From assembly GCA_021731085.1 (NCBI GenBank), contig JAKFYB010000022.1:3395-66467 (forward strand): a DNA stretch of 63,073 nucleotides, read 5' to 3'. Position numbers and translations under genes: made by a program. This DNA comes from Dehalococcoidia bacterium (lineage in GTDB: Bacteria > Chloroflexota > Dehalococcoidia > DSTF01 > JACRBR01). Shown piece after piece: positions 51,658 to 53,672 of this stretch (position 1 is its first letter; each line of letters starts with the position of its first letter). The notes below the pieces were generated by a model, which was given only the letters and a program-made list of their open reading frames with translations, had not been told where the DNA came from and searched no databases.

Positions 51658-52284
51658 TCAGGCAGGGTACCGAACAGCAAGACGCGGATTGTCGTTCGTA
51701 CCGCGCCGGATCTTGCCCGTCTGCACGACAATCCCCTCCTTCGTGACCTCGATCTCCACCGTGTCCATCGCCCGAATCGCGGGCCCGCGCACCAGCGCGC
51801 CCGCCCGCGTGTACGTCGAACCGTGACAGTTGCAGTTGAACATGCCTTTGCGTTTGAGCGGGTCGTTGGGCGACACGAAGTCAGCCTTCCACGGCACGGT
51901 GCAGCCCAGGTGCGGGCACTTCTGCCACAGCGCCAGCAGCCCGCCCGCGGACGGCTCCGTGTTCGACGCAACTCGTCCCTCATCAGGCAGAAGGTTCACC
52001 AGAAGGAAGTGCCCTTCGATGACAGGCAGCGGCGGCCCGCCAGGAGCGGGAATCCGACTCGCAGGCACCGCGACAGGCAACCCAAACCCCGAAAGTCCGC
52101 GCGGATACAGCGTGTTGATCAGCGTCGCCCCGATCCCGCCCATAGTCGCGAAGAGCGCAGCAAAGACCCCGAACTTCAACACGCCCCGCCGCGTCACTCC
52201 CGTCGCAGCACGCTCCCGAACCTCGACAATCGGGATCACCTCCCCCACCGCCGTGCGCCCATCATTCACCTGAATCGAAGTCAT
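51658..52284 (-). CDS. Membrane-anchored Rieske [2Fe-2S] protein (Rieske 2)
   Basis: 208 residues. The twin-arginine-like anchor TRRGVLKFGVFAALFATMG starts at about residue 31, after a 30-residue N-terminal tail. Ligands are in WQKCPHLGCTV and FNCNCHGSTY. The overall shape matches the Rieske protein of cytochrome bc or b6f-type complexes, and the RRxxLKFG and CPHLxC segments match Rieske 1, implying duplication. AAGGAGG precedes the ATG. No cytochrome b or c1 gene is in the window. Confidence 0.9.
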   Translation of the reverse strand: MTSIQVNDGRTAVGEVIPIVEVRERAATGVTRRGVLKFGVFAALFATMGGIGATLINTLYPRGLSGFGLPVAVPASRIPAPGGPPLPVIEGHFLLVNLLPDEGRVASNTEPSAGGLLALWQKCPHLGCTVPWKADFVSPNDPLKRKGMFNCNCHGSTYTRAGALVRGPAIRAMDTVEIEVTKEGIVVQTGKIRRGTNDNPRLAVRYPA

Positions 52285-52300
52285 CGCTGCCTCCTTAGTC

Positions 52301-52338
52301 GCATATAGATAGCATATCTATCTATATGCCAAAGACAA
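52301..52338 (-). promoter_or_regulatory. Promoter with PadR-type operator for the double-Rieske operon
   Basis: A palindrome with perfect 12-bp arms GCATATAGATAG and CTATCTATATGC separated by CATAT (52301-52329). On the minus strand TTGTCT (52333-52338), a 16-nt spacer and TATGCT (52311-52316) form a promoter whose -10 lies in the palindrome centre. This A/T-rich stretch is strikingly unlike its GC-rich surroundings. Binding by the PadR encoded two genes downstream would block transcription. Confidence 0.75.
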
Positions 52339-52460
52339 CCCCTCTCCTTCGAGCCTAAGTCCTCCAACCGGCGGCCGAAACCATCACCCCTGTCTCTTCC
52401 TCGTGAAATTGTTATGTCGCGCACCGACTCTGCCCACTCGCCACGCTCGCATGCGCTACA

Positions 52461-52476
52461 TGTTTCACGTGAAGCA
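52461..52476. other. parS-like ParB-binding site, copy 1
   Basis: TGTTTCACGTGAAGCA, 15 of 16 matches to the universal chromosomal parS palindrome. The bases after it, TCACCATTTGCCG, resemble those after copy 2. Confidence 0.75.
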
Positions 52477-52640
52477 TCACCATTTGCCGATCTGCTCCAG
52501 CCCCAGGCGTAAGCACCCCCACACCCGCTATTCACCTCTAACCGCGACCACACCTCGCTCTGCGAGCCTGTGCGCCGCCTTCTGCGACTCTGCGTCGGGA
52601 TACAGTTCTCGGAGCAAGGCGCTCCCTCGTGCCCGATGTA

Positions 52641-52656
52641 TGTTTCACGTGAAACA
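52641..52656. other. parS-like ParB-binding site, copy 2
   Basis: TGTTTCACGTGAAACA, a perfect 16-bp palindrome and an exact match to the universal parS consensus. It is 180 bp from copy 1. Confidence 0.88.
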
Positions 52657-52671
52657 TCACCATCTAGCGGT

Positions 52672-52700
52672 TTCGCCACGCCGCGCCGAGCTGCTATACT
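52672..52700 (+). promoter_or_regulatory. Promoter of the rpsB operon
   Basis: TATACT (52695-52700) is one base from the -10 consensus; a weak -35 TTCGCC (52672-52677) lies 17 nt upstream. The start would give a leader of about 70 nt. Confidence 0.5.
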
Positions 52701-52723
52701 CACCCCGAACTGAGACACCGTAG

Positions 52724-52765
52724 TCCGGACGCTGGGGCCAAAGCGGCCCCAAATCTATGTCCGGA
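52724..52765 (+). promoter_or_regulatory. Structured leader before rpsB
   Basis: An outer 7-bp stem TCCGGAC (52724-52730) / GTCCGGA (52759-52765) encloses an inner 7-bp stem TGGGGCC/GGCCCCA (52733-52751). The outer stem touches the GGAAGG next to the ribosome site. Autoregulation by ribosomal protein S2 is possible. Confidence 0.5.
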
Positions 52766-52778
52766 AGGATTGGAGCCC

Positions 52779-53672
52779 ATGGTTACTGAGACCGCCCCTT
52801 CGCCGTCCCCATCGTCCGTCTCGATGAAAGCCCTCCTCGAAGCTGGCGTCCACTTCGGACACCAGACTCACCGTTGGGACCCGAGGATGAAGCGCTACAT
52901 CTTCACCGAGCGCAACGGCATCCACATCATCGATCTCCAGCAGACCGTCCCCCTGCTCAAGCAGGCGATGGACTTCTGCCGCACCCTGTCCTCGAACGGC
53001 CAGACGGTGCTCTTCGTGGGCACGAAGAAGCAGGCGCAAGAGTCAATCGAGGTAGAGGCAACGCGCGCGAACGCGTCGTACGTGACGACGCGCTGGCTCG
53101 GCGGCACGCTGACCAACTTCCAGACGATCGAGAAGCGCATCGACTATCTGGTGCAGCTCGAAGACCGCTACCAGCGCGGCGAGCTGAGCCTTCTCATAAA
53201 GAAGGAAGCCGGCAAGCTCATCCAGGAGATGGAGAAGATGAACCGCTACTTCGGCGGCATCAAGAACATGCGACGCCTGCCCGGCGCGCTGTTCATCGTC
53301 GACCCGCCGATGGAGCGCATTGCCGTCACGGAAGCGAACCGCATGGGCATCCCGATCATCGCCATGTGCGACACCAACTCGAATCCGGACGAGATCGACT
53401 TCCCCATCCCGTCGAATGACGACGCAATCCGCGCCGTGAAGCTCATCGCCAGCAAGATCTCCGACGCCCTGATCGAAGGGCACAACTTACAGGGCTACGC
53501 ATCTGAAGCGGACACAGCCGAAGGCCTCGATGTCGCGTCGTTCGCAGCATCCGGTCGTTTCTCGGCTTCGCCAGACGATCCGAGCCCAGCGGCTCCCGAG
53601 CCTGAACCAACTCCGGAGCCTGCGGCGGCAGCGCCAGCACCCGCCTCCGAAGCGCCGCCGACCGAAGCCTAG
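52779..53672 (+). CDS. rpsB: 30S ribosomal protein S2
   Basis: 297 residues. [27 protein letters not shown] is the S2 signature region (only its first part is needed: [12 protein letters not shown]), with [22 protein letters not shown] and [15 protein letters not shown] downstream. About 60 Ala/Pro/Glu-rich residues extend the C-terminus beyond the usual end and are probably disordered. The start at 52779 has GGAAGGATTGGAG upstream. First gene of the translation/lipid cluster. Confidence 0.97.

Follow-up and report, generated by a model that had tools for sequence, protein, structure and literature searches.

Chromosomal parS, the site bound by ParB in the ParABS systems of B. subtilis, Caulobacter, Streptomyces and Myxococcus, has a 16-bp palindromic core, TGTTNCACGTGAAACA, and at the high end up to 20–23 such sites have been counted near the origin (PMC7333895). 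The position of the sites matters in the model bacteria: in P. aeruginosa parS is needed within a zone of ~650 kb around oriC (PMC5098823), Caulobacter accommodates additional parS sites mostly in the neighbourhood of its native cluster (PMC5815017), and in B. subtilis strong parS sites placed far apart lead to collisions of SMC (PMC8357415). The genome studied here resembles these systems in the 16-bp core, in a canonical ParB and an SMC, and in one array of sites at jag/pfkB; unlike their clusters, it has ~36 copies, spread through at least 36% of its length, and unlike their parS, the copies have a common lineage-specific asymmetric flank. Two other kinds of element invite comparison. The Noc-binding sites (NBS) of Firmicutes are likewise dispersed sites for a ParB-family protein, but the core found here is that of parS. 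The REP/BIME repeats are similar in having a short palindrome with a one-sided flank and in being intergenic, dispersed and grouped in small arrays, but here the palindrome is exactly parS and the members of an array have the same orientation.

The window (the whole analyzed stretch of 63,073 nucleotides) lies within contig C19 of a 3.58-Mb draft bin of 52 contigs (96.6% complete, 0.9% contamination). It contains two matches to the parS palindrome, one of 16/16 and one of 15/16 (Table 1), whose starts are 180 bp apart, and no third match with up to three mismatches; at the same threshold, shuffled windows yielded 0.12 matches on average and two matches in 1 of 100 shuffles. The exact palindrome, the 15/16 copy at exactly this distance and the gene-free location were all described correctly in the original prediction, as was the conservation of one flank: both cores continue downstream with the identical ATCACCAT. 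We found that the upstream side is conserved as well, albeit more weakly (CTCGCATGCGCTACA at site a, CTCGTGCCCGATGTA at site b), and that the two extended elements point the same way, with flank scores of 29.5 forward vs -25.0 reverse for site a and 28.2 vs -22.7 for site b. A reading of the sites as structured RNA was discarded, with no match to any Rfam family.

Table 1. Features at the site pair in the window (positions of the window; gene calls are our own)
Feature	Position	Strand	Remarks
parS-like site a	52461..52476	+	TGTTTCACGTGAAGCA, 15/16 match
parS site b	52641..52656	+	TGTTTCACGTGAAACA, exact 16/16
Extended asymmetric element, site a	52446..52484	+	CTCGCATGCGCTACA-core-TCACCATT; orientation same as site b
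Extended asymmetric element, site b	52626..52664	+	CTCGTGCCCGATGTA-core-TCACCATC
Intergenic gap with both sites	52285..52778	.	494 bp, divergent flanking genes
Rieske-type iron-sulfur protein gene	51658..52284	-	one side of the gap
rpsB (30S ribosomal protein S2)	52779..53672	+	followed by tsf, pyrH, frr
Promoter-like hexamers ahead of rpsB	52673..52700	+	TCGCCA-16-TATACT, consensus match only
106-aa ORF across both sites	52403..52723	+	likely spurious

The 106-aa ORF that spans both sites would read MFHVKHH twice; it is likely a by-product of the sites, and as such a trap for automatic annotation. We also observed that the end of C19 just past the 3' end of the window overlaps an end of contig C16 by exactly 85 bases, which suggests that the two contigs are probably adjacent in the genome.

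The search of the whole genome for the 16-mer, which the original prediction had recommended, revealed 29 exact copies, 7 with one mismatch and 5 with two mismatches, and the reversed-pattern control gave 0 matches. Grouped into loci separated by more than 5 kb, the 36 copies with up to one mismatch amount to 17 loci distributed over 14 contigs; uniform placement of 17 loci would occupy 13.0 contigs on average, and at most 14 with a probability of 0.84. The copies are thus indistinguishable from an even scatter across the genome, an outcome that the original prediction had itself named as one that would speak against origin-proximity, and its suggestion that the pair gives a clue to map position has to be given up: sites scattered genome-wide give no ground for putting the window close to the origin. 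The smallest arc holding all sites in any contig order is at least 1.297 Mb, or 36% of the genome, assuming a single circular chromosome; four contig junctions could be closed by end overlap. Four copies stand between jag and pfkB on contig C18, at the place where a genome of the same genus, G001, has its own origin-locus site, and this array, together with the ~0.75 Mb spanned by the native sites of B. subtilis (PMC8357415), could be taken to indicate an ordinary origin-proximal cluster in a large origin domain. We consider this very unlikely in view of the arc and of the fit of the 17 loci to uniform scatter, on which ground the origin-proximal cluster was rejected, and of the different appearance of two high-count genomes of the phylum that are truly clustered (G356, with 16 of its 18 sites in ~9 kb, and G350, with ~22 of 27 in a stretch of 20 kb). 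The contig with dnaA, C42, contains no site at all, and none was found in this genome at the PQQ-repeat lipoprotein gene ahead of yidC, the origin-locus parS place of the family. In the relatives (L034, L036, L041) that family site lies at or in the 5' end of the lipoprotein gene, where it reads VSRET.

By our own gene calls, 33 of the 36 sites are intergenic, although 80% of the examined sequence is coding. Of the 21 intergenic gaps of known context, 11 lie between tandem genes, 6 between convergent and 4 between divergent ones. The intergenic preference, and the promoter-like hexamers that begin 17 bp past site b, ahead of rpsB, would suit a role other than that of a centromere, as the operator of a transcription factor or as a promoter element controlled by ParB. 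This we regard as highly improbable, since six of the 21 gaps are convergent, the genes flanking the sites are unrelated, and orientation and distance to gene starts vary, so that the gene context lacks the consistency expected of a promoter element; moreover, the core is exactly that of parS and a ParB is present. The linkage to rpsB that had been called noteworthy is real in this genome but carries no meaning: it is one of 17 loci, and no site was found near rpsB within four mismatches in any of 16 relatives, so an rpsB-specific association was rejected. The directional flank could also be thought of as a polar, replication-oriented signal of the KOPS/FRS kind. Its orientation agrees with GC skew (as a proxy of replication direction) at 9 of 18 loci (P = 1.0), and with orientation bias absent we rejected this possibility, to which we attach almost no probability.

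Alignment of all copies defines an 18-bp core, A-TGTTTCACGTGAAACA-T, accompanied by an asymmetric flank, one side of which reads TCRCCAY and the other, in most copies, CTCGCACGCGATGC; a looser GGCACTC occurs ~36 bp out from the core. Most copies have the lineage-specific form CTCGCACGCGATGCA-parS-TCACCAT and are intergenic, and only the core is invariant. Neighbouring sites separated by 82–239 bp point the same way without exception, across spacers pieced together from other intergenic repeats; local duplication is thus the probable origin of pairs such as that of the window. The long common flank, the same-orientation pairs and the spacers made of other repeat modules would also be expected of a mobile intergenic repeat that happens to carry a parS core, is bound by ParB without gain to the cell, and is recent enough for its copies to be undecayed; the asymmetry of the flank would agree with a REP-like route, in which a transposase of the IS200/IS605 type copies a hairpin together with a one-sided flank. 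We hold such passive hitchhiking to be possible, if on the whole unlikely, because at about a third of the sites the flanks are near-random (leave-one-out scores down to -10) and the cores exact, and intermediate cores are missing. In a scan of ~0.95 Mb with the core masked, 22 of the best flank matches enclose a core with no more than two mismatches, cores with 3–6 are absent, and the remaining flank matches have cores with at least 7 mismatches, as by chance; a genome-wide flank pattern (up to two mismatches), which reaches only the closest flank type, gave seven matches, every one with an exact core. Neither of these searches, the masked-core scan and the genome-wide flank pattern, found a half-decayed core. 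Flanks that drift while cores stay favour selection on the core, albeit the copies were first searched for by this core, so that its constancy partly reflects ascertainment.

The genome encodes one canonical ParB, P0001, on contig C29 (L007:1357-2295), and with it the presence of a parB gene, whose absence the original prediction would have taken as evidence against parS, is settled. P0001 aligns to solved Spo0J/ParB structures, shares 64% identity with the ParB whose gene adjoins parA in G001, and has as its nearest named relative the ParB of bacterium HR29 (52%), which the NCBI taxonomy leaves unclassified. An SMC is encoded as a frame of 1278 aa (C12:58967-62644). With a canonical ParB and an SMC both encoded in the genome, the sites are best identified as parS, as had been proposed; the exact core and its occurrence in relatives at the origin-proximal yidC/jag/parA locus support it further. 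The residues of Caulobacter ParB that contact parS include Q162, R173, N178 and R204 (PMC7383237), and P0001 has the equal residues. In the larger contact set Q162/G170/K171/S172/R173/N178/G201/R204 all are present except G201, which is Ser, and K171 is Arg, as in the ParB of most relatives. Since Gly201 has been stated to be absolutely conserved in ParB (PMC7383237), the Ser at its position is a point against the copies as loading sites for P0001. A Noc site was rejected on account of the wrong core and the wrong specificity residues: P0001 has Arg173 and the ParB N-terminus LGRGLSALIP rather than the Noc specificity set QKKR, with R/S/S/S at Q173/K179/K184/R201. With outgroups from the family, P0001 shows 36–41 unique changes vs 15–19 in the ParB of G001 (chi-square 5.3–12.1), an excess that is weaker with two order-level outgroups (chi-square 1.5 and 3.6), and RpsB shows no such difference from its G001 counterpart; by these counts, P0001 is evolving faster than its same-genus counterpart. 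A further protein with a ParB_N domain is encoded on contig C43 (L189) beside a gene resembling the small subunit of phage terminase, and this contig is probably a prophage.

The P0001 gene stands alone, adjoining neither parA nor any parS site. No ParA ortholog was found in the draft genome, and all seven relatives searched have one. In G001 the gene order is pfkB-parA-parB, and C18 breaks inside pfkB at its start (L022:1-321), just where parA-parB follow in G001; no contig end carries the remainder of pfkB. We do not claim a loss of ParA because C18 ends at the expected place of parA, which may lie in the gap beyond. P0001 also keeps the N-terminal motif GLGRGLSALIP, which contacts ParA, and firm loss was dropped on these grounds.

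The 29 exact copies are the top count in a sample of 400 genomes of the phylum, the next being 27, and the 17 other genomes of the same order have 0–3 exact copies, except G004 with 10. G004, of a different genus in the same family (L038-L046), resembles the genome under study in having many exact cores on many contigs, but with a different flank: most of its non-origin exact sites are followed by a one-sided parS-TWNGTTCT-like sequence, and parA is at the usual locus. Such a second flank in another genus is what hitchhiking on a mobile repeat would lead one to expect. The opposite is suggested by G103, G144 and G331, which likewise have many dispersed exact sites on many contigs but without a long common flank, and in which about half of the sites examined are within genes. 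G144 and G331 are two species of one genus (g69) with 17–22 exact parS sites, and one site in cysS (L280:1501, L283:1501) occupies a matching place in both, which supports the retention of a non-origin site. G103 presents a cluster of seven exact sites on its contig C34 (L272:3289-7125) in addition to eleven scattered single sites, and some flanks in this cluster are self-complementary, e.g. AGCAAGCGTTCAGATA. A literature search found no report of dispersed parS in Chloroflexota, the Livny 2007 survey being outside that search.

We consider it rather probable that the copies are a true parS set, spread by an intergenic repeat and kept as distributed loading sites for ParB and SMC. According to this explanation, the window pair would be one locus of a dispersed, genome-wide set, and the single canonical ParB would most likely nucleate on each core, load as a CTP-dependent clamp and recruit SMC, so that the entry points of ParB and SMC would be spread over the chromosome rather than concentrated at the origin. 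What spread appears to have been a short intergenic module made up of core and asymmetric flank, with local duplications of ~160–240 bp producing same-orientation pairs like that of the window and purifying selection retaining the 16–18 bp core while the flanks drifted. The benefit of distributed loading is not obvious, because parS sites far apart are harmful or non-functional in B. subtilis, Caulobacter and P. aeruginosa. A bolder proposal is a "holocentric-like" distributed centromere, in which the spread of the parS repeat, the break-up of the parAB operon, the rapid evolution of ParB and the possible loss of ParA would belong together; we regard it as doubtful. If true, it would mean that segregation no longer depends on pulling a single origin cluster.

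The reasons for the clustering of parS sites and the constraints on their spread have been described as an open question (PMC7333895), and in model bacteria the engineered dispersal of parS causes disruption (PMC5815017, PMC5098823, PMC8357415). The genome under study and several other Chloroflexota are natural exceptions to origin clustering, and as such they allow a direct test of whether the loading of ParB and SMC can be decentralized, and of the changes in ParB, ParA and SMC with which this would go.
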